DNA from: Candidatus Poribacteria bacterium
Lineage (GTDB): Bacteria > Poribacteria > WGA-4E > WGA-3G
Reading direction: 5' to 3'
Length of the DNA stretch: 19,832 bases
Assembly (NCBI GenBank): GCA_009835515.1
Contig: VXXH01000058.1
Span: 1-19,832 of the forward strand
Shown here in pieces: positions 6,433 to 19,832 of this stretch; position 1 is the first letter of the stretch; each line of letters begins with the position of its first letter. A model generated the notes under the pieces. It was given only the letters and a program-made list of their open reading frames with translations. It did not search any database and was not told the origin of the DNA. Position numbers and translations under genes: made by a program.

Positions 6433-7260
6433 TTAGTAAGTTGTCTTGATCTCACTCCATGTCGTTGTGAGTTTGTCTTTGACATCAACATCAAATCCGG
6501 CACCACTTGTGACGAGAATGCTGTCGATTCTGCCATTGCCCCAACTCTCGTGCCAGACTCCGACGGTACCGGCACTTTTGTACGTGGCTTTGTCAGATTC
6601 AAGGACAGGATCACCGAGCGTACTGGAATCTGCGAACAGGTCTTTGACTTCCGCAAGTTCCATATACCAAACCTTAACGTTGCTGCCTTTGACTTCAACC
6701 CGTCCGAGGTAGGGAACAGAGTTATCTTGTGTCAGTCCCCCGCCTAAGCCGTGGTCCACACCGAGTATTTCTTTCCCACCGTTTTCACAACCGCAATCAC
6801 TGAGGCACTGTCCGGAGGGGCAGCACCCATCTGCGAGATCACCGAGGATGACTTTGGATGTCTCATTATATCCAAAGACAACGAGATAGCCTTTATCGTC
6901 GCCTTTTCTGCGGAATTGAACACCGAAACTGTCATCATCACCGAAAGAGAAGACGACTTGAATAATACCGTCGGTGAAATCGTCGACATCGGGGAGCGGT
7001 GTATTGCCGGAGATGCCACATCCCTCAGCGGTTTGTGTCATCGATTTTTTACCGCCGATATTGCCGCCTTTGAAATCTCCTTCAGCCCAGATAGTTCCGG
7101 CGTTTTCCGGTTTGTATTTCTTGACATCGTTCACACCAGCATTCGGTTTTGCCTCCTTAGAACCGGGCTCAAAATCGGCGTAAAACACGATGTTTCCGGC
7201 GGCGTGGAAGGAAAAAAGTAGACTCAAGATGAGCGTTGAGAGCAAAAGACGTATTTTCAT
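6433..7260 (-). CDS. Secreted LamG/concanavalin A-like protein with Cys-rich loop (paralogue A)
   Basis: A 275-aa protein with a Sec signal peptide (KIR, then a hydrophobic core at residues 4-20, cleavage near FHAAG), so exported. The mature part looks like a single beta-sandwich of the concanavalin A/LamG or DUF1080 kind: FGVQFRRKGDDKGYLVVFGY (112-131) and TVGVWHESWGNGRIDSILV (232-250) resemble the core strands. Six cysteines are visible: C81 in EGCGISGN and a cluster in DGCCPSGQC followed by LSDCGCENGG (146-158). They suggest disulfides or a metal-binding loop. The tail, KLTTTWSEIKTTY, is shared with the upstream paralogue. GAGGAGGT lies 5 bp before the ATG. A second copy lies at 7546-8370 on the same strand, 285 bp away. 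Ligand and function are unknown; carbohydrate or surface binding is inferred from the fold only. Confidence 0.75.
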   Translation of the reverse strand: MKIRLLLSTLILSLLFSFHAAGNIVFYADFEPGSKEAKPNAGVNDVKKYKPENAGTIWAEGDFKGGNIGGKKSMTQTAEGCGISGNTPLPDVDDFTDGIIQVVFSFGDDDSFGVQFRRKGDDKGYLVVFGYNETSKVILGDLADGCCPSGQCLSDCGCENGGKEILGVDHGLGGGLTQDNSVPYLGRVEVKGSNVKVWYMELAEVKDLFADSSTLGDPVLESDKATYKSAGTVGVWHESWGNGRIDSILVTSGAGFDVDVKDKLTTTWSEIKTTY

Positions 7261-7545: not shown

Positions 7546-8370
7546 CTAATAACTGCTTTTAACTTCGCCCCATGTCGTGGAGAGCTTGGCATGGGGATCA
7601 ACTGCTACGGTGCCGCCTGGTCCGGTGACGAGAATGCTACCGATTCTGCCGTTGCCCCAACTTTCGTGCCAGACACCAACAGAGCCAGGTCCAAGGTCAT
7701 CTGCGCCGTCGTATTCTACGACTGGATCACCGAGTTCTGCGGAATCTACAAAGAGACTCGGCACATCCGCGAGCGGCATGTACCAGACTTCGATAAGGGT
7801 ATCAGTGACTTGAACACGTGCGAAATAGGCGACAGAGTTGTCTTGTGTGAGATCAGCGCCTAAGCCGTGATCGACACCGAGCAGCTCATTTCCGCCGTTT
7901 TCGCATGAACATTGGTCGAGACATTGACCGGAGGGGCAGCATCCGTCTGCGAGGCTGCCGATGATAATTTGGGGTGTTTCGTTATAGCCGAATGCGACGA
8001 GGTATCCCCTATCGTCGCCGACACGCCGGAACTGGAAACCGACACCGTCGTCGTCTTGCCAAGAGAATACGCCTTGGATGATGCCGTCGGAGAAGTCATC
8101 AACACCGGGCAGTGGCGTGTTACCGGAGATGCCGCATCCCTCTTGGGTTTGATGCAAAGCACCCTCACCGCCGGGGAATTCTGTCGCTTCTGCCCAAATG
8201 GTGCCCTCGTTTTCCGACACCCAATTCGCGGGGTCATTGACGCTGGCATCTGGGACGGCATCTTTGGAGGCGGTTTCAAAATCAGCAAAGAAAATTACCT
8301 GTGCACTCGCGTGGCCAATTAGCATGACCGAAAACAGCGCGATGAACATCAGCAGGTGGGTTCGTTTCAT
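7546..8370 (-). CDS. Secreted LamG/concanavalin A-like protein with Cys-rich loop (paralogue B)
   Basis: A 274-aa exported protein: KR followed by a hydrophobic stretch and a clear signal peptidase site (GHASA-Q, near residue 23). It aligns with paralogue A along its whole length. Shared blocks include EGCGISGNTPLP, FQFRRVGDDRGYLVAFGYN, LADGCCPSGQC, CENGG, LGVDHGLG, LTQDNSV, VGVWHESWGNGRI and the C-terminal KLSTTWGEVKSSY. All six cysteines are conserved, which supports a structural or ligand-binding role for the loop. AAGGAG lies 7 bp upstream of ATG 8370. The pair probably arose by tandem duplication and has since diverged substantially, so both copies are likely maintained. No catalytic residues can be named. 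Export to the periplasm or outside is the safest conclusion. Confidence 0.75.
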   Translation of the reverse strand: MKRTHLLMFIALFSVMLIGHASAQVIFFADFETASKDAVPDASVNDPANWVSENEGTIWAEATEFPGGEGALHQTQEGCGISGNTPLPGVDDFSDGIIQGVFSWQDDDGVGFQFRRVGDDRGYLVAFGYNETPQIIIGSLADGCCPSGQCLDQCSCENGGNELLGVDHGLGADLTQDNSVAYFARVQVTDTLIEVWYMPLADVPSLFVDSAELGDPVVEYDGADDLGPGSVGVWHESWGNGRIGSILVTGPGGTVAVDPHAKLSTTWGEVKSSY

Positions 8371-9135: not shown

Positions 9136-12006
9136 TCAATCGTCGCGTTGAAAGCGGAGCACGCCGTTTTGTTTTGTGCCGATGTAGAACGTATCCCCAT
9201 CAATAGCAAAAGAGGTTGCTGTGTGTGGCAGTTCTGAAGTAATCTGTTTCCATGTGTTTGTTTGGTTATTTACCTGATAAACACCACTATCAGACACGCC
9301 GTAAGTTGTCGCGCCATTGACTGCGATCCGGTCCATGATAAGTCTGTTCCCATCAATATCGGTGACTACGTGCCATGTCTCGCCATCGCGTGAACTCATG
9401 ACTCCCATATCGGTTGAGACATAGACAGTTGACCCAGCGAAAAACATTTCTCTGAAATAGCCGAATGGAAATACGAGGTTTGCGGTCATGTCGCGCCAAG
9501 TGTCGCCACCATCTTCGGACAGGAAAAGATCGCCTTCTCGTTTTCCGGCATAGACGGTGTTCCCCGAAACGGCAAGGGTGAGACCTTTCCCCTCAATAGG
9601 TGAGATGCCTTTGATGTCTTCTAAACCAGTGTCGTGCCATGCCGTTTCGCCGCGTCGCCATCTGTAAAGTTTATGTCTATATTCCATGAAGACGGTATCG
9701 TCAGCGACGGTAAACGTTCCATTCGTCTGCCATTCTTCAAAGACGCGGTGTTGGTTAGCCTTCCACTGCTCCTGTACTTTATTAACATCCTCACCGTTCT
9801 TTCTCGCATCCATACGTTTGTTCCACCATTCCTTGTGTAAGGTATCTTCTTCAAAATCTGGTACACCTTCAACGGGTAGAAACACATCACCTGCATCAGA
9901 GAGACGAAAGAGCGTGACACCATCGAGTTCACTGTTACTTACATAGAGCACACCGTTGGTTGTTACGATTTCCGCCTTCTCTCCTTCAAGAGAAGTTTTT
10001 TCGTTCGTATTTAAACCGATGGATTCCCATGTCTCGCCGTCATCTGTGGATTTGAGCGTTTCCTCAGGTGTTAGGGCGTAGAGAACGTTTTCGAGAGCAA
10101 CCAGACTTGGCACATGGGAATTCACCATTCCGCTCATAAAGGGTTGCCATGTGACACCCCTATCTGTTGAACGTGTTATTCCGGCGTGATAGGTTTTGTA
10201 AAGATTATTTTCATCCAACGCGATAGTAGGATACGCGCCATACGCACTTCGGTCGCCGCCAGGATCCGTCCATGTTTCGCCACCGTCATCAGAACGTAAA
10301 ACGCCACCGTTACCCATCAACATAAGCACATCTCTGAATGGAACAACTTCGACTGTAGTTATTAGTTTGACTGGATACTCGTGTGTATTTGGTGTAATAT
10401 CTATCCAAAAATCGCCGAGGTCGGTCGAATAGAAAACGGCGGCATGCGGACCATCCGGAGGGCTTGCGATTGTTCCGACGTAGAGTCTATCTTCAGCAGT
10501 TGCCAACGATTTGATGCCGTGCGAAGTTGGCACCGGCAATTTTTCCCAATTGTCAGTAAATCGGAAGAGTCCTTGACTTGTTCCGACAAATAGTGTGTTA
10601 TCAATAGCGAGTGCGTCCCATATACGGAAATTGGGGGCACCCGCCTCTGGGACGTTATCGGCTTGCAAATCCTTTCCTATGGGTTCCCACTGGTTCCCGA
10701 CATCTTCGGAACGAAAGACTTCCGTTTGGAGGACGAGGTATATTGCTGTATCTGTGATAATTAACGCTCTTGCGCGTCCTTCAGGTCGCTTGCCGAGGCT
10801 ATTCCATGTTTCACCGTCATTGATTGAGACCAAGAGTTCATTAGGTGTGAGGAGATAGAGGGTGTCGTCACGTTCTGCCATGACCAAATTGAACTCTCGA
10901 TTTGGACCGCTGGCACTGACGAGTGTCCACCCATCTGTCTTTTCTGTGAGTTGATAGAGTCCTGTTTTTGCAATCGCGTAGAGGGTTTGATCGGATGCGA
11001 GAAAGAGTCCAGCACTTGAAACACCACCGGGGCCCTTCGTCTGAATCCATTCAGGTTTTGCTGCTGGCAGGTCGGTTTCTTCAGCATGTGCAGCTGCGAC
11101 AAGAAGTGATTCCGCTTGGAATCCAGATGCCCCGTTTTTACCCGGTGTATCAGTCTTCCCGAATTGGGTCAGGGCATCGGATTTACGTTCCAATTCAAAA
11201 ACAATAGGCGCGTCAACGAGTTCTATTGTCATCTCCGATGTTGCATCCAAGCTGTAAGGTTGCTGAAAACGGGATAATGCACGAGGTCCCATTCCGACCA
11301 TCAAGAGAACCAAAAAGGTTGATGCGAAAGAGAGTCCCCACGGTAGCCATGGCTTACTCACGGAAGGCGAAGTGGGTTTGATGCGCGCGATTTCACGCAT
11401 GACATCCTGGGTTAAAGTCGGCGGCAATTGGAATACACCTGAAACATTGTGGAGCAAGTGTTCTTGCGCTTTCAATCGCTTGCGAGCGCGGCGGAGCCGA
11501 CTCCGAACCGTGTTCGGTGATACCCCCAAAAATGCGCTAACCTCCTCACTCGTCATTTCTGCGAGATAATACAGGGTTACAACGGTGCGTTCGCTCTCTG
11601 GAAGCTTTTGGAGGAGGCGTTTGACGAGTTCGCGCTGGTGTTCAATAGATGCTTCCTCGCCACGTGCTGCCTCATATCGGGCATAACATAATGCCTCTAA
11701 TTCGGTTGTGGATATCGCATTCAGGGATGTCGTTGATACCTGCTTCTTTCGGAGCCATGTGATACAGTGCCGCGTGGTGATGACATAGAGCCACCCCGGA
11801 AAACGATCGAGCGGTTTCAGTGTCGATAACTTTTTGTACACCTTAAGGAAGATATCTTGTGTGAGTTCTTCGGCGGTATGGAAATCACCTATCTTCCGCC
11901 AGACAAGGGTATGAACCCATTTCTGGTATTTGTTGACGAGCGTTGTAAACGCTCCCTCGTCTCCATCCAAAGTCCGTTGAATTAATGCAGCATCACTCTC
12001 TCTCAT
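9136..12006 (-). CDS. ECF sigma factor / transmembrane helix / Asp-box beta-propeller fusion, paralogue 1
   Basis: 956 aa in three parts. Residues 5-95 are sigma region 2 (DGDEGAFTTLVNKYQ, ELTQDIFLKVYKKL, FPGWLYVITTRHCITWLRKK). Residues 125-180 are sigma region 4 with its helix-turn-helix (LPESERTVVTLYYLAEM, VSAFLGVSPNTVRSRLRRAR). One hydrophobic helix (LPWGLSFASTFLVLLMVGMG, about 221-240) follows. The rest (about 325-953) is a repeat region with Asp-box motifs S-x-D-x-G-x-x-W near 394, 433, 527, 572, 613, 653, 830 and 871, as in BNR, Ycf48 and sortilin propellers. A charged helical insert (about 718-760) interrupts it. With the sigma part in the cytoplasm, the propeller must face outward. 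No anti-sigma gene is adjacent, so the C-terminal part may restrain the sigma part. GGAGG sits 7 bp upstream of the ATG; a promoter with the shared dyad lies at 12042-12088. Confidence 0.85.
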   Translation of the reverse strand: MRESDAALIQRTLDGDEGAFTTLVNKYQKWVHTLVWRKIGDFHTAEELTQDIFLKVYKKLSTLKPLDRFPGWLYVITTRHCITWLRKKQVSTTSLNAISTTELEALCYARYEAARGEEASIEHQRELVKRLLQKLPESERTVVTLYYLAEMTSEEVSAFLGVSPNTVRSRLRRARKRLKAQEHLLHNVSGVFQLPPTLTQDVMREIARIKPTSPSVSKPWLPWGLSFASTFLVLLMVGMGPRALSRFQQPYSLDATSEMTIELVDAPIVFELERKSDALTQFGKTDTPGKNGASGFQAESLLVAAAHAEETDLPAAKPEWIQTKGPGGVSSAGLFLASDQTLYAIAKTGLYQLTEKTDGWTLVSASGPNREFNLVMAERDDTLYLLTPNELLVSINDGETWNSLGKRPEGRARALIITDTAIYLVLQTEVFRSEDVGNQWEPIGKDLQADNVPEAGAPNFRIWDALAIDNTLFVGTSQGLFRFTDNWEKLPVPTSHGIKSLATAEDRLYVGTIASPPDGPHAAVFYSTDLGDFWIDITPNTHEYPVKLITTVEVVPFRDVLMLMGNGGVLRSDDGGETWTDPGGDRSAYGAYPTIALDENNLYKTYHAGITRSTDRGVTWQPFMSGMVNSHVPSLVALENVLYALTPEETLKSTDDGETWESIGLNTNEKTSLEGEKAEIVTTNGVLYVSNSELDGVTLFRLSDAGDVFLPVEGVPDFEEDTLHKEWWNKRMDARKNGEDVNKVQEQWKANQHRVFEEWQTNGTFTVADDTVFMEYRHKLYRWRRGETAWHDTGLEDIKGISPIEGKGLTLAVSGNTVYAGKREGDLFLSEDGGDTWRDMTANLVFPFGYFREMFFAGSTVYVSTDMGVMSSRDGETWHVVTDIDGNRLIMDRIAVNGATTYGVSDSGVYQVNNQTNTWKQITSELPHTATSFAIDGDTFYIGTKQNGVLRFQRDD

Positions 12007-12041
12007 CTGTCTTCCTCCGAAAAAATAAAGAATAAGGCTTC

Positions 12042-12088
12042 ATTATATAGTAACGTACTTTGGAGGTCGAAATGGTGCATAAAATGCA
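12042..12088 (-). promoter_or_regulatory. Promoter and conserved TGCATAAAATGCA dyad of sigma-propeller gene 1
   Basis: On the minus strand: dyad (12088-12076), 4 bp, TTCGAC (12071-12066), 18 nt, TATAAT (12047-12042, within TATATAAT). The dyad TGCAT-TTT-ATGCA and its AATT flank recur at the same place before both other sigma-propeller genes. The leader is about 30 nt with GGAGG at 12014-12018. Confidence 0.65.
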
Positions 12089-12309
12089 ATTTTCGGAAGA
12101 TTTAGGATTTATAGTGGATTCTGCAAATATGTTGAACACTTTTAAGAAGATAACCCCTTAGAAGAAACACCCCAGCAAAACATCTCCCTTATCAGAGGGA
12201 ATAGGATCGGAAGTGCTTCGATTTGGTGTGTTTCAATAATTATGGGCTTTACTATAATATGGGGTGGAAACGAGGATTGGAAATCTCGTCACCGAAGCAT
12301 ATTGATCTG
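12089..12309. other. Intergenic region between sigma-propeller genes 1 and 2
   Basis: No gene seen. GAAACAC (12164-12170) and GTGTTTC (12228-12234) form an inverted pair around a small hairpin TCCCT-TATCAG-AGGGA (12185-12200). The latter shares its CCCTTATCAGxGGG core with the MITE-like element at 1517-1619. A GAGG-type palindrome follows at 12270-12289, just before the stop of gene 2. Confidence 0.5.
12270..12289. repeat. GAGGTT-type palindrome after sigma-propeller gene 2
   Basis: ACGAGGATT (12270-12278) and AAATCTCGT (12281-12289) pair at 8 of 9 positions around GG. It sits 21 bp past the stop codon of gene 2, the same relative position as the palindrome after gene 3. Confidence 0.55.
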
Positions 12310-15261
12310 TTAGAGTCCATACAGCGGCAAGCTTAAAAGCCCGCGGTGTTCTGTGCCCATATAGAGAACATTCCTCGCAACAACAATGGAAGTTACCTGT
12401 CCAAGGACTTCTGAAGTAATTGACTCCCAGATGCCTGTCCTATTATTCAATTGATAAACACCTGTTTGGGAAACACCGTACAGGGTTGTGTCATCGACTG
12501 CTAATTGGCGTATGGCAATCGGTGTATATTTTGGATCGGTGAGTGTGTGCCAGTTTTCGCCATCGTTCGACATAGCAGTGCCGTCTTTTGTTGAAACGTA
12601 TACCGTGTTACCCACAAAGAATATCTCTCTGAAGTGCGGTATTTTCTTTACGAGTTGGTACTGCGATTCCGCTTTATTAAGGCGGAAGGGGAAATCTGGG
12701 GTAATATCTTTCCAAGTGTCCCCACCATCCAAGGATTGGAAAAGACCGCCGTCACTTTTTCCGAGATAGATGACCTTTCCTGAGACAGCGAATTGGAAAC
12801 CGTCAGTCGCATAGAAGTCCCTGAATACGGGTACGTCGTGCATACCGGTGTCGTGCCATTCTGGATTTCCACGGGTCCATCGGTAGAGTTTCCGTTCGTA
12901 TTCAATGTAGAACGTGTTTTCGCTGATAGCGAACTCACCCGTCGTTCTCACAACGGCTTCCTCAATGCCGAGTTGATAGCGAGCGAGATCTGTATCATTC
13001 AGGTCAATAGTGCCAGTTGTCCTGATTGTCTGTTCCAACCATTTGCCGTGGCTTGGATCTACGTAAACCGGCATTCCTTCAATATGCATCAGTGTATCGG
13101 CATCCGGAGGTAAATGGAGCAAACAGTTTGTACTTCCACCCTGATTCGTTCTGACATAAAGTGAATCCGCCACGACTGTCATATTTGACAACTTTAGCGC
13201 GCCAAGCGGTTTATTTCTCGGGAGTCGTAGATTTGTGTCGAGTTGTGTCCATTGATTCCCGCCGTCAATGGATTTAGCGATACCTTTATTGGTTACAGCG
13301 TAGAGCACGTTGTTAACCAGTGCGAGATCAAGAATGTGAGGTTCTGCTATACCTGCTGCGAACAGATGCCAACTATTGCCACCATCTGTTGAACGTCCAG
13401 GTCTATTCCCTCCAATAAAAAAAGTATTCGCATCTAAAGCGACCGCGGGGAAAATGCCGAGTGTGAGCGCGTGTTTATGAATACCGAGGTATTCCCATGT
13501 GTCGCCAGCATCTCTTGAACGTAAAACGCCAGCACCCAGTCCAAGTCCTAAGAGGGTTTCACCTGCCGCCACAAGTTTTACAGATCCTGATCCAATTGTC
13601 AGTGGTGACCTTCTTGTCAGTGGTACCATTCCTAATTTTAGATTTATGGGGGTTATGTCAACCCAGGACGCTCCGAAATCACTTGAGGCAAAGAGGGAAC
13701 CGGATTTCTGATCTCTCTGCTTTGGGACACTGATGTAAATTTTGTCGCCAGCGACTGCCAATGCGTCAATAGATTGTGCTTGTGCAACGGATAATTTCTC
13801 CCATACGCCTGAGTTGAGTCGGTAGAGTCCGTGTTTTGTTCCCAAAAAGAGGGCATTTTCAATGGCAACTGCAGCGTGTATCTTCGGTGCTACCAAACCA
13901 TTGTTAAACGCGTGCCATGTGCCGCCAGCATCTGTTGAACGAAACACGCCGTCTGCGAGGACGAGGTACATTTCAATCTGTGCATCCTTCGACCAGCGTA
14001 GTCTGCTGGGGATAAGCAGGGCGATGGCGCGTCCGCGTGGCCGTGGACCGAGGAAATGCAACGTCACACCCCGATCTGTTGACGCGAGTAAATTAGTTTC
14101 CGTGGCAATATAGAGGGTATCCTTCCCCTCTGCCATCGGCGTACTATGAGATATAAAGGGCAGTGCGGCGTTAATGAGTGTCCATCCAGTGTTGTCATCT
14201 GCTAATCGGTAGAGTCGGGTGTCTCCAACAGCATAGACCTCTTTTTGCGATGTGACAAATAGGTTCTTGATACCGCCACCCTCTGGCCCTCTTGTTGGCA
14301 TCCATTGCGGTTCTGTCTCCTGTCTCTCTACGGTATCTACTTGTGCTGCTGCCAACAGTCCGGCATTGGCTTTCGGACCTGCACCGCTGCCTCTCCCCGG
14401 CGCATCACTCTTTCCAAACCGATTTCTTACATCCAGTTCTCGTTTTAGTTCAAATACAACGGGTGCGTCAACCAACTCAACCGTCATCTCCGATGTCGCG
14501 TCCAAGTTATAGGGTTGCTGAAAACGGGATAATGCACGAGGTCCCATTCCGACCATCAAGAGAACCAAGAACGTTGACGCGAAAGAGAGTCCCCACGGTA
14601 GCCATGGCTTGCTTACGGAAGGCGATATCGGTTTGATCTTAACAATTTCGCGCATGATGTTCTCGGTTAGATTGGTGGGTATTTGGAAACTGCCGAGAAC
14701 CTCTTGAATCATGAGTTCTTCCTTTTCCAACCGTTCGCGGGCACGGCGGAGCCGACTTCTAATTGTGTTTGACGATACTCCCAAAAATGCGCTAATGTCT
14801 TCACTCTTCATTTCTGCGAGATAATACAGGGTTACAACGGTGCGTTCGCTCTCCGGCAGCTTTTGGAGGAGACGTTTGACGAGTTCGCGCTGGTGTTCAA
14901 TTGCTGTTTCTTCACCACAGTTCGCTTCATATTGCGCGTAGCAGACTTCTTCGAGTTCGGCTGTGGACATGGCATCCAAAGATTTCGTCGGTAGCTGCTT
15001 TTTCCGCAGCCATGAAACGCAGTCCCGTGTGGCAATCACATAGAGCCATCCCGGAAAAAGTTCTGGACGTTTCAGCGTGGAGAGTCTCTTGTAAACTTTC
15101 AGAAAGACATCTTGTGTGATTTCCTCAGCGATATGGAAATCACTTATCTTTCGCCAGACGAGGGCATGCACCGATTTCTGGTATTTGTTAACGAGCGTGG
15201 TAAATGCACCTTGATCACCGTCTAAAGTCCGTTGAATGAGATCAACATCATTTGCCTTCAT
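12310..15261 (-). CDS. ECF sigma factor / transmembrane helix / Asp-box beta-propeller fusion, paralogue 2
   Basis: 983 aa with the same plan as its neighbours: sigma region 2 (DGDQGAFTTLVNKYQ, EITQDVFLKVYKRL), sigma region 4 (MKSEDISAFLGVSSNTIRSR), a membrane helix identical in sequence to that of paralogue 1 (LPWGLSFASTFLVLLMVGMG, about 221-240), then about 650 residues of Asp-box propeller (for example STDAGGTW, SSDFGASW, SRDAGDTW, STDGGNSW, SIDGGNQW, SLDGGDTW). The propeller is clearly the most divergent of the three: it has extra insertions, lacks the QTNTWKQI tail and ends VLYMGTEHRGLLSLPLYGL. It could therefore sense a different ligand while the sigma part reads similar promoters. GAGGAG lies 5 bp before ATG 15261 and the dyad promoter at 15291-15336. 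It lies 303 bp upstream of gene 1; each gene having its own promoter argues against a single operon. Confidence 0.85.
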   Translation of the reverse strand: MKANDVDLIQRTLDGDQGAFTTLVNKYQKSVHALVWRKISDFHIAEEITQDVFLKVYKRLSTLKRPELFPGWLYVIATRDCVSWLRKKQLPTKSLDAMSTAELEEVCYAQYEANCGEETAIEHQRELVKRLLQKLPESERTVVTLYYLAEMKSEDISAFLGVSSNTIRSRLRRARERLEKEELMIQEVLGSFQIPTNLTENIMREIVKIKPISPSVSKPWLPWGLSFASTFLVLLMVGMGPRALSRFQQPYNLDATSEMTVELVDAPVVFELKRELDVRNRFGKSDAPGRGSGAGPKANAGLLAAAQVDTVERQETEPQWMPTRGPEGGGIKNLFVTSQKEVYAVGDTRLYRLADDNTGWTLINAALPFISHSTPMAEGKDTLYIATETNLLASTDRGVTLHFLGPRPRGRAIALLIPSRLRWSKDAQIEMYLVLADGVFRSTDAGGTWHAFNNGLVAPKIHAAVAIENALFLGTKHGLYRLNSGVWEKLSVAQAQSIDALAVAGDKIYISVPKQRDQKSGSLFASSDFGASWVDITPINLKLGMVPLTRRSPLTIGSGSVKLVAAGETLLGLGLGAGVLRSRDAGDTWEYLGIHKHALTLGIFPAVALDANTFFIGGNRPGRSTDGGNSWHLFAAGIAEPHILDLALVNNVLYAVTNKGIAKSIDGGNQWTQLDTNLRLPRNKPLGALKLSNMTVVADSLYVRTNQGGSTNCLLHLPPDADTLMHIEGMPVYVDPSHGKWLEQTIRTTGTIDLNDTDLARYQLGIEEAVVRTTGEFAISENTFYIEYERKLYRWTRGNPEWHDTGMHDVPVFRDFYATDGFQFAVSGKVIYLGKSDGGLFQSLDGGDTWKDITPDFPFRLNKAESQYQLVKKIPHFREIFFVGNTVYVSTKDGTAMSNDGENWHTLTDPKYTPIAIRQLAVDDTTLYGVSQTGVYQLNNRTGIWESITSEVLGQVTSIVVARNVLYMGTEHRGLLSLPLYGL

Positions 15262-15290
15262 TATATCTCCTCACAAAGAATAGGGGTTTC

Positions 15291-15336
15291 ATGATATAGT
15301 GACGCATATAGGAATCAAAATGGTGCATAAAATGCA
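15291..15336 (-). promoter_or_regulatory. Promoter and conserved TGCATAAAATGCA dyad of sigma-propeller gene 2
   Basis: On the minus strand: dyad (15336-15324), 5 bp, TTGATT (15318-15313), 16 nt, TATCAT (15296-15291). The -35 differs from the TTCGAC of genes 1 and 3 while the dyad is identical, so the dyad is conserved better than the -35. Confidence 0.65.
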
Positions 15337-15370
15337 ATTCTTCGGAAAGTTGTGCCTTTAATAATGCAAA

Positions 15371-15391
15371 GGCGAGGTTGCAAACCTCGCC
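15371..15391. repeat. GAGGTT-type palindrome after sigma-propeller gene 3
   Basis: GGCGAGGTT (15371-15379) and AACCTCGCC (15383-15391), a perfect 9-bp stem with loop GCA, 49 bp past the stop of gene 3. On the minus strand it is not followed by a T-run. It is the best-preserved member of the palindrome family (7477, 8721, 12270). Confidence 0.7.
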
Positions 15392-15439
15392 AGCAAAAGG
15401 AAAATTAAGGGCATATAAATGGAGAAAAAAAGAAAATAT

Positions 15440-18337
15440 TTACCGACTGTCACGCTGAAAGCGGAGGACACCGTTTTGCTTTGTGCCGATGTAAAACGTA
15501 TCGCCATCAACAGCGAATGAGGTCGCTATGTGTGGCAGTTCTGGGGCAATCTGTTTCCATGTATTTGTCTGGTGATCTACCCGATAAACGCCACTATCAC
15601 ACACGCCGTAAGCCGTTGTGTCATCAACTGCGATCCTATCCATGATAAGTCTATTCCCATCTGCATCGGTGAGTGCGTGCCATGTCTCGCCATCGCGTGA
15701 ACGCATGACTCCCATATCCGTTGAGACATAGGCGGTTGATCCAGCGAACAGTATCTCCTTGAAGTGTCCAAACGGAAATACAAGGTTCGCGGTGACATCA
15801 CTCCAAGTGTCTCCACCATCTTGGGAGAAAAAAAGATCTCCTTCCCGTTTTCCGGCATAGACGGTGTCCTCTGAAACGGCAAGGGTAAACCCTTTTCCAT
15901 AAATAGGAGACATCCCTTCAATATCTTCCAAACCTGTGTCGTGCCATGCCGTTTCACCGCGTCGCCATCTGAAAAGTTTACGCCTGTACTCCATGAAGAC
16001 AGTATCATCGGTGACCGTAAACATTCCATTTGTTCGCCACTCTTCCATGACGCGGTGCCGGTCAGCCTTCCACTGCTCCTGCACTTTATCAATATCAACG
16101 TTGTTGTTTTCCGCTTCCATGAATTTTTTCATTTGTTCTGTGTGTAGGGTGTCTTCTTCAAAATCCGGTACACCTTCAACGGGTTGGAACACATCACCGG
16201 CATTAGAGAGGCGAAAAAGTGTGACACCATCAAGCTCACTGTTGCTTGCATAGAGCACGCCGCCGGCTGTTGCGACTTTCGCTCCTGGTCTTTTCAGTGG
16301 AACATTCCCGTTAGCATTCAAGCCGACAGATTTCCACGACTCACCACCATCTGCGGATTTGAACATTTCTGTAGGTGTTAGCGCGTAGAGAACGTTTTTG
16401 ACCGTAATCAGATTTGGCACATCAGAATTTACCATTCCAGCCATAAAGGGGTGCCACGTGGCACCGCCATTTGTTGAGCGTGTTATTCCGGATGGATTGG
16501 TTATATAAAAATTACTTTCGTCCACTGCAACAACAGGAAACGCGCCTAATACCCCGCGATCGCGTCTCGGATCTATCCATGTCTCGCCACGGTCATAAGA
16601 GACGAGTACGCCGCCAGCACCAACCAACATCAGGGTCCCTCCGACTGGAACAACCTCAACAGCGGCTATTATCTTATGTAAATGCTTGTCGGTATCCGGT
16701 GTAATATCTGTCCAAGAATCACCGAGGTCCGTCGAATAGAAAACGGCGGCATATAGGCTCCTACCTGCTCCAGGCTCTTGACCGACATTAGTTGTTCCGA
16801 CATAGATTCTATCTCCAGCGACTGCCAACGATTTGATACCCTGTGAAGTTGGCACCGACAATTTTTCCCACGTGTCGGTAAACTGAAAAAGTCCTTGACT
16901 TGTTCCGACAAATAGCGTGTTATCAATGGCGAGTGCATTCCATATAAGGAAACCCAATTTGGGATCCGGCATGTTATTGATTTTCAAGGTTTGTCCAATT
17001 GACTCCCATTGGTGCCCGACATCTTCAGAACGAAATACTTCTGTGCTGAGGACGAGGTACATCGCTGTATCTGTGATAATCAACGTAACCACACGGCCTT
17101 CGGGGCGCGCGCCGAGACTGTTCCATGTCTTACCCGCATCAATTGAGGCTAAAAGTTCATTGGAGGTGAGGAGATAAAGGGTGTCCCCGTATTCTGCCAT
17201 AACCGTATTGAAAGCCGCATTGAACTCTCGATTTGGACCACTGGCACTGACGAGTGTCCACGCGTCCGATTCTTCTGCGAGTCGATAAAGCCCCGTTTTC
17301 GCAACAGCGTAGAGGGTCTGGTCAGATGCGAGAAAGAGTCCAGCCCTTGAAACGCCGCCCGGTCCCTTCGTCTGAACCCACTGCGGTTCTGCTGTTGAAA
17401 GGTCGGTCTCCTCTACTTGCGCCGCTGCGATGAGGAGCGGTTCCGCTTGGAATTCAGAGGCACTGTCTTTCCCAAGGATATCGGCTTTGCCGAATCGCGT
17501 CAGAGCGTCGGATTTACGTGCCAATTCAAGGACAATAGGGGCGTCAACGAGTTCTATTGTCATTTCGGATGCTGCGTCTAAATTATAGGGTTGCTGAAAA
17601 CGGGATAATGCCCGCGTGCCGAATCCCATTATCAAGATAACCAAAAAAGTTGATACGAAAGAGAGTCCCCACGGTATCCAAGGTTTGCTCGCGGAAGGGG
17701 ATGTCGGTTTGAGACGTGTGATTTCGCGCACGATATTCTCTGTTAGATTTGGGGCGAGTTGGAAATTGCTCAGGACCTCCTGAATCATGGATTCCTCCTT
17801 TTTTAGTCGTTGCCGGGCGCGCAGCAGCCGACTCCTCACAGTGTTCGGCGACACGCCTAAGAACATGCTAATCTCTTCACCTGTCATTTCTGCGAGATAA
17901 TACAACGTTACAACGGTACGTTCACTCTCTGGAAGTTTTTGCAGAAGGCGTTTGACGAGTTCGCTCCGGTGTTCAATCGCTGTTTCTTCGCAGCGGTTCA
18001 CCTCATATTGTGTATAACATAACTCCTCTAACTGCCCTGTGGACATGGCATCCAAAGATTTCGTCGGGAGCTGCTTTTTTCGTAGCCATGCGATACAACG
18101 ACGCGTGGCAATTACATAGAGCCATCCGGGAAAATGATCTCGGTGTTTCAGCGTCGAGAGTCTCTTGTAAACCTTCAGAAAGACATCTTGCGTGATTTCT
18201 TCGGCGATGTGGAAATCACCGATCTTCCGCCACACAAGGGCGTGCACCGATTTTTGATATTTATTGACGAGCGTGGTGAAGGCATCTTGATCACCGTCTA
18301 ATATACGTTGAATGAGGTCAGCGTCGCTGGTATTCAT
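15440..18337 (-). CDS. ECF sigma factor / transmembrane helix / Asp-box beta-propeller fusion, paralogue 3
   Basis: 965 aa. Sigma region 2 (DGDQDAFTTLVNKYQ, EITQDVFLKVYKRL) and region 4 (MTGEEISMFLGVSPNTVRSR) are closest to paralogue 2. The membrane helix (IPWGLSFVSTFLVILIMGFG) is the odd one of the three. The propeller is closest to paralogue 1, with the same order of blades (SEDVGHQW, STDLGDSW, SADGGESW, SQDGGDTW, RDGETW) and nearly the same end (QTNTWKQI, YIGTKQNGVLRFQRD). An acidic/helical insert (DIDKVQEQWKADRHRVMEEW) interrupts the propeller as in paralogue 1. The second of two adjacent ATGs (18337) was chosen: GAGGAG is then 5 bp upstream, against 2 bp for ATG 18340, and the N-terminus aligns with the other two. 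Dyad promoter at 18367-18413. It lies 174 bp downstream of the sigma54 activator. Confidence 0.85.
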   Translation of the reverse strand: MNTSDADLIQRILDGDQDAFTTLVNKYQKSVHALVWRKIGDFHIAEEITQDVFLKVYKRLSTLKHRDHFPGWLYVIATRRCIAWLRKKQLPTKSLDAMSTGQLEELCYTQYEVNRCEETAIEHRSELVKRLLQKLPESERTVVTLYYLAEMTGEEISMFLGVSPNTVRSRLLRARQRLKKEESMIQEVLSNFQLAPNLTENIVREITRLKPTSPSASKPWIPWGLSFVSTFLVILIMGFGTRALSRFQQPYNLDAASEMTIELVDAPIVLELARKSDALTRFGKADILGKDSASEFQAEPLLIAAAQVEETDLSTAEPQWVQTKGPGGVSRAGLFLASDQTLYAVAKTGLYRLAEESDAWTLVSASGPNREFNAAFNTVMAEYGDTLYLLTSNELLASIDAGKTWNSLGARPEGRVVTLIITDTAMYLVLSTEVFRSEDVGHQWESIGQTLKINNMPDPKLGFLIWNALAIDNTLFVGTSQGLFQFTDTWEKLSVPTSQGIKSLAVAGDRIYVGTTNVGQEPGAGRSLYAAVFYSTDLGDSWTDITPDTDKHLHKIIAAVEVVPVGGTLMLVGAGGVLVSYDRGETWIDPRRDRGVLGAFPVVAVDESNFYITNPSGITRSTNGGATWHPFMAGMVNSDVPNLITVKNVLYALTPTEMFKSADGGESWKSVGLNANGNVPLKRPGAKVATAGGVLYASNSELDGVTLFRLSNAGDVFQPVEGVPDFEEDTLHTEQMKKFMEAENNNVDIDKVQEQWKADRHRVMEEWRTNGMFTVTDDTVFMEYRRKLFRWRRGETAWHDTGLEDIEGMSPIYGKGFTLAVSEDTVYAGKREGDLFFSQDGGDTWSDVTANLVFPFGHFKEILFAGSTAYVSTDMGVMRSRDGETWHALTDADGNRLIMDRIAVDDTTAYGVCDSGVYRVDHQTNTWKQIAPELPHIATSFAVDGDTFYIGTKQNGVLRFQRDSR

Positions 18338-18366
18338 CATGTCTCCTCTAAAAAAATAGGGGTTTC

Positions 18367-18413
18367 ATGATATTATAGACGCGTAGAGGGGTCGAAATGT
18401 TGCATAAAATGCA
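18367..18413 (-). promoter_or_regulatory. Promoter and conserved TGCATAAAATGCA dyad of sigma-propeller gene 3
   Basis: On the minus strand: dyad (18413-18401), 4 bp, TTCGAC (18396-18391), then TATCAT (18372-18367) at 18 nt; an overlapping TATAAT (18377-18372) lies only 13 nt from the -35. The AATCCTAAA block further upstream (near 18425-18435) is shared with gene 1, so the conserved upstream region extends beyond the dyad. Confidence 0.6.
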
Positions 18414-18511: not shown

Positions 18512-19819
18512 CTATACCGCAGAGGAGCCGTTTTCTGATATTTCATAGTCTTTCAATCTATTTTGCAAGGTCCGAATGCTTATACCCAATATCTCCGCGG
18601 TTTTCGTTCGATTGCCGTCCTGCCATGCTAAAGTATCACGAATAAAGGCTTCTTCCACGGTTTTAAGGCTCGCGCCGAGCGGAACAGTCACTGCGTGTTG
18701 GTTTTCGGGTGCTTGAATTTCTTCGGGCACGCTGACACGCGGCTTTTGGAATGCAAGAATTTCTTCGGGGAGGTCCGTCGGTAAGATGCCATTGCCTTCA
18801 GCAAAAAGGAGCGCGTGGATTAGGACGTTTTCCAACTCTCGCACATTGCCGGGCCATGGATAGTTTTGGAGACATGTAAGTGTTTCGGGAAGTATTTTAC
18901 GCACGGCGCGCGCGTAGCTTCTACCATGTTTTTCGATAAGGTGTTCTGCCAAGACCTGGATATCTTCCTGCCGTTCACGTAATGGTGGTATAGAAATAGA
19001 AACAGCATTTAATCGGTAATAGAGGTCCTTGCGAAAAGTGCCATTTTCAACGGCGTGTGCGAGGTTACAATGTGTAGCCGCTACAATTCGGATGTCCACT
19101 GGAATTGGCTTTGTGCCGCCGAGGCGTTCAATCTTGCCTGTCTCAACTGCCCGTAATAATTTGACTTGCAAAGATAGCGGCATATCGCCGATTTCATCAA
19201 GGAATAGCGTGTTGTTGTGTGCTCTTTCAAATTTGCCGATGTGTTGTGTTCTCGCACCGGTAAACGCCCCTCTTTCATGTCCAAAAAGTTCACTTTCCAA
19301 AAGTGGACCTGGAATGGCTGCACAATTGAGAGAAATCATTTCGTTCGCCGAACGGTCGCTATTTTGGTGTAAAGCTTGTGCTATCAACTCTTTGCCGGTC
19401 CCTGTCTCCCCGCAAATCAGCACTTTTGCCACTGTGTTTGCAACCTTATCAATTTGCCTGAGAATTTCAATAACGCGTGGACTTCTCCCAATAATACCGG
19501 CGTAATTTCCTTGTAATTCACTCCTTGAAAGCGTCCGAGAAGTTTTAAATTGCACGGTTCCTGCTTTTTTAATCTTGCGTGTATCTTCTATCCGCTGTGG
19601 TATCGGGTGGTCATTTCCATCCTCAGAAACCAACAGGATTGCCTCGGACTCAACATTCGCGAGTTGTGCAGCTCTGTCCTTTGCCACAATAGCAGGATCG
19701 TAACCATCTTTTTCGAGGAGATTTTCCAAATTTCTCACGGTGTCATTAGACACATCACCCAGAATAAAAACGTTCGCTTTATCATGGGATTTGCCATTTC
19801 TTGTTCTGTGAATCATCAT
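18512..19819 (-). CDS. Sigma54-dependent transcriptional activator (NtrC-like bEBP), Fis-type DNA-binding domain
   Basis: About 435 aa. The central AAA+ domain is complete: Walker A GETGTGKE (about 139-146), the sigma54-contacting GAFTGA loop (186-191), Walker B LFLDEIGD (207-214), the arginine-finger segment FRKDLYYRLN and PWPGNVREL. A C-terminal Fis helix-turn-helix (TAEILGISIRTLQNRL, about 409-424) binds enhancer-like sites. Such proteins hydrolyse ATP to open promoters held by RpoN. The N-terminal 100 residues (ANVFILGDV, VRNLENLLEKDGYDPAIV, AILLVSEDGND) look like a receiver domain but are short, and the usual phospho-acceptor Asp strand is not evident, so control by phosphorylation is doubtful. 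ATG 19819 was chosen because GGAG (19829-19832) is 9 bp upstream; an in-frame GTG at 19825 is only 3 bp from it. It is transcribed toward the sigma-propeller array. Confidence 0.85.
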   Translation of the reverse strand: MMIHRTRNGKSHDKANVFILGDVSNDTVRNLENLLEKDGYDPAIVAKDRAAQLANVESEAILLVSEDGNDHPIPQRIEDTRKIKKAGTVQFKTSRTLSRSELQGNYAGIIGRSPRVIEILRQIDKVANTVAKVLICGETGTGKELIAQALHQNSDRSANEMISLNCAAIPGPLLESELFGHERGAFTGARTQHIGKFERAHNNTLFLDEIGDMPLSLQVKLLRAVETGKIERLGGTKPIPVDIRIVAATHCNLAHAVENGTFRKDLYYRLNAVSISIPPLRERQEDIQVLAEHLIEKHGRSYARAVRKILPETLTCLQNYPWPGNVRELENVLIHALLFAEGNGILPTDLPEEILAFQKPRVSVPEEIQAPENQHAVTVPLGASLKTVEEAFIRDTLAWQDGNRTKTAEILGISIRTLQNRLKDYEISENGSSAV

Positions 19820-19832
19820 TTTCACTCTCTCC

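Follow-up and report, generated by a model that had tools for sequence, protein, structure and literature searches.

A large poribacterial family of one-chain ECF sigma factors with a predicted membrane anchor and changeable C-terminal parts

The stretch of DNA considered here (the window) is 19,832 nucleotides of contig VXXH01000058.1 from a metagenome-assembled genome (MAG) of a Candidatus Poribacteria bacterium (GCA_009835515.1; 881 contigs, 78.6% complete). It carries a tandem array of three minus-strand genes, A, B and C, each encoding the sigma2 and sigma4 domains of an extracytoplasmic function (ECF) sigma factor, a hydrophobic helix (residues ~221-240) and, beyond it, a conserved stalk that leads to an Asp-box double propeller folded like GH74. 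Each gene is one open reading frame (ORF), with all domains on a single chain (ORF list, Pfam). The reading that we favour, with moderate confidence, is that these are one-chain receptors with exchangeable sensors and shared promoters, their sigma part being most likely freed by proteolysis. They are far from being three isolated genes, a view dropped once 40 members of the same family were found in this genome and 73 in a congener; neither the size of the family nor the variety of its C-termini, the sensor changes and the promoter statistics are visible from the window alone. The parts of the three genes are as follows; gene A has a second in-frame ATG at 18337, from which its residues are numbered.

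15440..18340, minus strand: gene A, 966 amino acids; sigma2-sigma4, membrane helix, stalk, Asp-box double propeller (ORF, Pfam, hydropathy)
17792..18337, minus strand: gene A sigma2 + sigma4 part, residues 1-182 (Pfam; PDB matches to SigW and RpoE)
17618..17677, minus strand: gene A predicted membrane helix, residues ~221-240 (hydropathy; family profile)
17513..17617, minus strand: gene A conserved stalk RFQQPY...SE.T.E..DAP, residues ~241-275, presumably outside the cell
15443..17392, minus strand: gene A double propeller, residues 316-965 (Pfam, structure comparison)
12310..15261, minus strand: gene B, 983 amino acids, architecture as gene A (ORF, Pfam, hydropathy)
14716..15261, minus strand: gene B sigma2 + sigma4 part (Pfam)
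14437..14601, minus strand: gene B predicted membrane helix and stalk (hydropathy; family profile)
12313..14316, minus strand: gene B propeller region (Pfam)
9136..12006, minus strand: gene C, 956 amino acids, architecture as gene A (ORF, Pfam, hydropathy)
11461..12006, minus strand: gene C sigma2 + sigma4 part (Pfam)
11182..11346, minus strand: gene C predicted membrane helix and stalk (hydropathy; family profile)
9139..11061, minus strand: gene C propeller region, differing from the congeners by replacement or strong divergence (Pfam, congener comparison)

The array, its family and the conserved chassis

All three window proteins score above cut-off for Sigma70_r2 and Sigma70_r4_2 (Pfam) and for TIGR02937, the sigma part of gene A aligns over the SigW and RpoE structures in the PDB, and by the presence of sigma2 and sigma4 the three appear to fit the ECF sigma factors; they are ECF factors with a C-terminal extension in the same chain. 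An earlier sequence-only reading of the window had proposed just this order of sigma domains, helix at ~221-240 and Asp-box propeller in three tandem genes, with which Pfam and hydropathy agree, and its expectation of one or two propellers is borne out for gene A, whose propeller has the GH74-type double-propeller fold. Structural matches to that propeller include 3ott, 3va6, 4a2l and 4a2m (TMq 0.19-0.24 among the matches listed). A profile alignment to 2cn2, where the GH74 catalytic aspartate pair would be sought, was too patchy for residues to be read, and single-protein PDB searches with the ectodomains gave weak Ycf48/BNR matches and nothing stronger.

A profile of the window's sigma parts found 38 members, genes A-C included, in the window and 46 loci of its own genome. 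A wider profile, run over own loci and those of G005 (a congener assembled as one contig of 6.66 Mb, in which Sigma70_r2 has 102 matches), found 40 own and 73 G005 non-identical members at E < 1e-60, the own set including seven with cut 5' ends and one (L031) running off its contig. The hydropathy threshold for an anchor is passed by 86 of these 113 members (32/40 own, 54/73 G005), two of the 27 below it, both from G005, being borderline. The search of related genomes suggested by the sequence-only reading was rewarded: a full window protein as query found a match in 60/60 of them, weak in the distant ones, where it may be to the sigma part alone. Sigma70_r2 counts run from 34 to at least 80 per genome within the genus and from 14 to 49 in other families of the order. 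With a 319-position chassis profile, the listed matches covering at least 270 positions come from three of 12 outgroup genomes, two apiece from G036, G038 and G047; the best of each (L168-L170) has the helix and, in the available part, 3-5 Asp-box motifs, and the Asp-box form therefore looks old, the large expansion belonging to the genus as far as these profiles reach. The protein database holds at least 6479 relatives (7998 candidates sharing most words were scored). Another ECF expansion is seen in G056 and G057, of the same class and another family (Sigma70_r2 counts of at least 80 and 72); the best chassis-profile matches of G057 stop near position 208, with one weaker match reaching 241. 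At L012:1375-2554 (minus strand) a chassis gene is split over two overlapping frames (131 + 287 amino acids) and is probably a decaying copy.

Within the chassis, by which we mean sigma part, anchor and stalk, sigma2 and sigma4 vary least (mean column entropy over 38 rows 1.0 and 0.96, vs. 1.95 for the membrane helix and 2.08 for the linker), with dN/dS (nonsynonymous to synonymous substitution rates) of 0.04-0.13 in four ortholog pairs, and the sigma4 recognition helix is near-invariant across the family. The family stalk consensus RFQ.PY...A..SE.T is common to members with unlike C-termini, R246, F247, Q248, P250, Y251, E258 and T260 being kept in at least 90% of 60 rows whose C-termini differ. 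A natural anchor-less member also occurs: L015 of the own genome (2872-5376, plus strand) is 79% identical to L095 of G005 and cleanly lacks 82 residues, namely the juxtamembrane segment, membrane helix and stalk, while retaining sigma, WD40 part and promoter, so that a soluble form exists.

Probable exchange of C-terminal parts behind similar chassis

Blastp clustering sorts the 113 C-termini into 23 clusters. Asp-box accounts for 44 members and WD40 for 26; the smaller clusters, by Pfam on their representatives, include M61, LRR with or without GHL15, Kelch, M16, redoxin, transglutaminase, PD40 with S9 peptidase, PD40, Reg_prop, CarboxypepD_reg, methyltransferase and DnaN, and for L093, L105, L082, L091 and L097 no Pfam match scored above cut-off beyond the sigma part. 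Mapped on a tree of the sigma parts that takes in 106 of the 113 rows, the C-terminal class must have changed 31 times or more, against a possible minimum of 14 and a figure of 60 from shuffles; the classes are the blastp clusters, and nine singletons are pooled there as 'single', so that the count may be too low but not too high. On this tree the classes appear clustered but repeatedly changed. Among the 96 pairs whose sigma parts are at least 80% identical, 23 differ in class, the closest being Asp-box L016 and Kelch L092, with sigma parts 98% identical.

Ten chosen pairs, five of different and five of the same class, were compared at the DNA level. In all five different-class pairs identity sets in 56-243 bases before the start codon (in one case limited by a contig end) and stops between nt +632 and +936, in or just past the anchor and stalk. 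Between gene C and its G005 counterpart, residues 1-270 are 91% identical (87-96% in sigma2, sigma4 and anchor) and the propellers ~38%; dS (synonymous divergence) is 0.24-0.85 in the chassis and 2.2-2.5, i.e. saturated, past the stalk, and since dS rises too, positive selection on the sensor was rejected as the sole cause of the contrast.

A similar pattern is predicted if gene conversion homogenises promoter, sigma and anchor among paralogs, in which case sensor exchange would be only apparent and the receptor model itself would stand. We regard this as possible but on the unlikely side. It suits the tandem arrays and the secondary DNA matches seen between neighbouring members in the pair study, as well as two members of one array, L094_3804 and L094_10403, with chassis 97% and propellers 56% identical; two of the five same-class pairs (gene B/gene C and L090/L089) also lose their match, at +813 and +834. 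The other three, however, match through the whole gene, and the comparison with G020 points to the sensor side. There gene B is 99-100% identical over its full length and gene C is 96-100% identical in DNA up to ~+680, upstream flank included, but only 72-94% beyond (residues 1-270 97%, propeller 79%), and the gene C propeller is closer to that of L047 (83%) than to that of G020. Sensor replacement and chassis conversion would yield similar patterns, and the G020 case favours a change on the sensor side.

Promoters, switching and competing explanations

Each gene of the array is preceded by a candidate ECF-type promoter, found by upstream motif search:

18373..18404, minus strand: gene A promoter, TGCAAC-N17-CGTC
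15295..15327, minus strand: gene B promoter, TGCACC-N17-CGTC
12046..12079, minus strand: gene C promoter, TGCACC with variant -10 CGTT

The common pattern, TGCAMC..TTT followed by CGTC 17-18 bases on (TGCAMC-N17/18-CGTC), occurs in 36 of 103 family upstream regions, ten of the 113 members having been excluded for cut 5' ends (7) or fewer than 60 bases upstream (3); 100 shuffles give a mean of 0.66 and a maximum of 3, and the reverse strand gives 1. Scanning the own genome yielded 26 matches (two overlapping at one site) vs. 9 for reversed-pattern controls, five of them ahead of chassis genes, one a broken copy; a stricter pattern in G005 gave 23 matches vs. 2, nine of them ahead of chassis genes and others preceding two ABC ATPases, a STAS protein, a TPR protein, a DUF3108-like protein and an ordinary ECF gene. 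A STAS-domain gene of G005 (L134:1733-2074, plus strand) lies ~200 bases downstream of the family promoter motif. A second -35 form (P2), defined after the fact, stands ahead of 11 of 106 members, all in one 13-row clade, whose sigma4 helix is SVAAIKNRLYRAR-like rather than S.NTIKSRL.RAR; this agreement is as expected if each sigma were to read its own promoter, and with all bearers in one clade it counts as one event. The suggestion that three diverged copies give parallel inputs is made likely by the near-invariant recognition helices together with the shared promoter type.

The one-chain architecture, the family size, the cassette junctions and the promoter with its statistics are read from sequence; the topology, outside signals with sensing by the C-terminal part, proteolysis, feedback and the direction of exchange we infer. 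A cytoplasmic ECF sigma would be linked, through a short juxtamembrane stretch and a single membrane helix, to the stalk and then the extracytoplasmic sensor; this N-in/C-out topology is presumed because there is one helix and the sigma must be cytoplasmic. The window sensor, a GH74-like Asp-box double propeller, would perhaps read glycans or proteins outside the cell, and its signal would be transmitted through the common stalk. The stalk or membrane helix would then most likely be cut, by a site-1 protease followed by an RseP-type site-2 protease, for which IutY, in the available part of PMC8999054, is the precedent, and the freed sigma part would bind RNA polymerase. Freed sigmas would recognise TGCAMC-N17/18-CGTC ahead of many family members and some genes for ABC transporters and secreted proteins, so that input from different sensors would converge on a single shared regulon, or a few, under positive feedback. 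The sensor would be the evolving part, changed by recombination behind a similar promoter-sigma-anchor-stalk cassette.

No anti-sigma domain was recognised by Pfam in the window proteins, nor a zf-HC2 match at E 1e-3, and the claim that no anti-sigma gene adjoins the array holds for zf-HC2, the only anti-sigma family searched genome-wide. The anti-sigma search that had been proposed gave four zf-HC2 matches in the own genome and seven in G005, the latter at six loci; these matches share a contig with compact ECF genes or lie no more than 1 kb from one, and not by the array; a nearby zf-HC2 anti-sigma gene was accordingly dropped as a candidate, other anti-sigma families not having been searched. 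Autoinhibition is not claimed, as the chassis model has no resolved juxtamembrane segment or membrane helix.

Several observations weigh against the proteolytic receptor with exchangeable sensors. Positive charge favours the near side of the helix only slightly (K+R 2.31 before it and 1.69 after, 80 members). No cleavage site was found, and the M50 site-2 protease is present in 7/7 genomes but also in all 14 of 14 controls, so that its presence says little. In the juxtamembrane segment, where the structure models are too unsure, there may be a remnant of an anti-sigma element. In some pairs the junction falls within the anchor, and the 3' flank after the gene C stop also differs from G020, so the changed tract exceeds the sensor. 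The promoter expression behind the count of 36 was composed after 31 upstream regions had been read, and one of the 36 (L111, at -28) overlaps the ribosome-binding region and is doubtful. Neither promoter form is found in 59 of 106 upstream regions, including 26 of 40 Asp-box members, and many members may therefore be transcribed otherwise or from operons.

The sigma might instead work in the membrane, in the manner of ToxR and CadC, a ligand dimerising or reorienting the chains so that RNA polymerase is recruited without proteolysis. One chain, one helix and a conserved stalk are suited to dimer signalling, and membrane-bound one-component activators are known (as described in the available part of PMC7593790); but a tethered sigma would need to act on promoters located at several chromosomal sites, and L015, with everything but juxtamembrane segment, helix and stalk kept, indicates that a free form occurs naturally. 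We think this mode unlikely. Less likely still is a cargo role for the C-terminal part, as an enzyme, adhesin or scaffold made under the control of the sigma to which it is joined: likeness to enzymes or housekeeping proteins is common among the C-termini (M61, M16, S9, redoxin, transglutaminase, methyltransferase, DnaN) and autoregulated promoters would suit, but the anchor and stalk conserved over unlike C-termini, together with a sigma part under purifying selection, speak for a sigma output that is regulated. That chimeric contigs in a MAG as fragmented and incomplete as this one created the family is scarcely credible and was rejected for the family as a whole, the same architectures and class differences recurring in one-contig G005, in G020 and in other named Poribacteria MAGs.

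If the proteolytic receptor reading is correct, a single chromosome, with its 73 fusions from the one family (54 of them predicted to be membrane-anchored), would be a natural platform of modular receptors in which sensors plug in and the output is common. The reading makes testable both the switching of an extended ECF sigma that has no separate anti-sigma and the convergence of many sigmas on one promoter class.

Side fusions, neighbouring genes and known systems

ECF sigma fusions to DnaN, the DNA polymerase III sliding clamp, occur in 6/6 genus genomes examined, the own genome included; these genomes also hold stand-alone dnaN ORFs of ~370 amino acids, and G044, from another family of the order, shows the stand-alone form only. 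The sigma is diverged in the G021 and G028 fusions. A diverged ECF sigma is likewise fused to an FtsZ/tubulin GTPase domain in which the GGGTG[TA]G loop is present; in the literature search an 'FtsZ domain' did not occur among the matches listed.

L002:5322-7055, minus strand, own genome: sigma-DnaN
L115:8284-10011, minus strand, G005: sigma-DnaN
L112:458-1825, minus strand, G005: shorter sigma-DnaN, lacking the third clamp domain
L152 (G017), L153 (G010), L154 (G021), L155 (G028): sigma-DnaN of other genomes
L035:4048-5241, minus strand, own genome: sigma-FtsZ
L038:4994-6349, minus strand, own genome: sigma-FtsZ
L115:475-1683, minus strand, G005: sigma-FtsZ
L104:647-4882, plus strand, G005: sigma-FtsZ extending, in one ORF of 1411 amino acids, into FtsZ_C and a DNA polymerase III alpha part (PHP, PDIDID, finger, HHH)

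A bolder proposal, which we hold to be rather doubtful, is of a recombining receptor repertoire with a fixed cassette, sensors replaced among close strains and shared promoters, whose soluble branches would use copies of the cell's DnaN, FtsZ and DNA polymerase III parts as sensors or decoys, reading replication and division (or attacking phage proteins) into transcription.

Directly upstream of the array lies a Sigma54-dependent activator (18512-19825, minus strand; Pfam, NCBIfam). Downstream are two paralogous proteins of ~275 amino acids (6433-7260 and 7546-8370, minus strand), neither with a Pfam or NCBIfam match. The latter ends in a C-terminal tag, TTWGx[ILV]K, with 51 DNA matches in G000 and 55 in G005 vs. 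0 for reversed controls; the tag may be a sorting signal, and in several cases (L033, L088, L092) a tagged ORF is found immediately upstream of a chassis gene. Rfam and tRNA searches of the window gave no match. Three labels come from general background: the name 'ECF01-Gob', the placing of OXG-RCBH in GH74, and an IS200-like reading of one gene.

ECF sigma factors with extensions have been described in at least 26 groups, membrane ones such as IutY/ECF243 and SCO4117/ECF52 included (PMC8999054, available part), and WD40-ECF paralogs in Planctomycetes (PMC8567305, available part); the sequence-only reading thus overstated its case in placing a sigma fused to its regulator outside known ECF systems. 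Among the closest are the Planctomycetes ECF factors with WD40-type C-terminal extensions (ECF57; Gemmataceae paralogs), which also have C-terminal propeller repeats and many young paralogs (same sources). As described there, ECF57 has two conserved cysteines that may link sigma2 and sigma4, whereas the poribacterial family has one Cys column (C81, 104/106 rows; next column 27/106), and membership was rejected on this ground; the shared predicted membrane helix and stalk (86/113) and the 23 C-terminal clusters also set the family apart. IutY of Pseudomonas putida likewise joins sigma and membrane part in one chain, and processing by Prc and RseP frees the sigma; according to PMC8999054, though, the fused part is the membrane anti-sigma of a cell-surface signalling system, whereas the window proteins have large ectodomains and no Pfam-recognised anti-sigma domain. 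SCO4117 of Streptomyces coelicolor (ECF52) resembles them in its sigma, membrane part and extracytoplasmic carbohydrate-binding domain; the extensions of ECF48/52/53 are described there as having a zinc-finger domain, and membership was rejected because the window proteins have no zf-HC2 match at the threshold given above.

Outside the sigma factors, the Bacteroides sensors BT4663 and BT4673 also couple a periplasmic double-propeller ectodomain to control of transcription, but their output is two-component rather than a sigma, and the structural similarity among the matches listed is TMq 0.19-0.24. GH74 xyloglucanases differ in that identity is 13-19% among the matches listed and the window propeller sits on a sigma factor. 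A literature search for Poribacteria sigma factors with propeller or WD40 found no publication. The common membrane cassette with many changeable C-termini appears new relative to known extended ECFs, though it may correspond to a published group, the Casas-Pastor 2021 classification being represented here as cited in PMC8999054. Extended ECF sigmas are already known, and what appears new is the scale, the exchange and the side fusions to DnaN and FtsZ.

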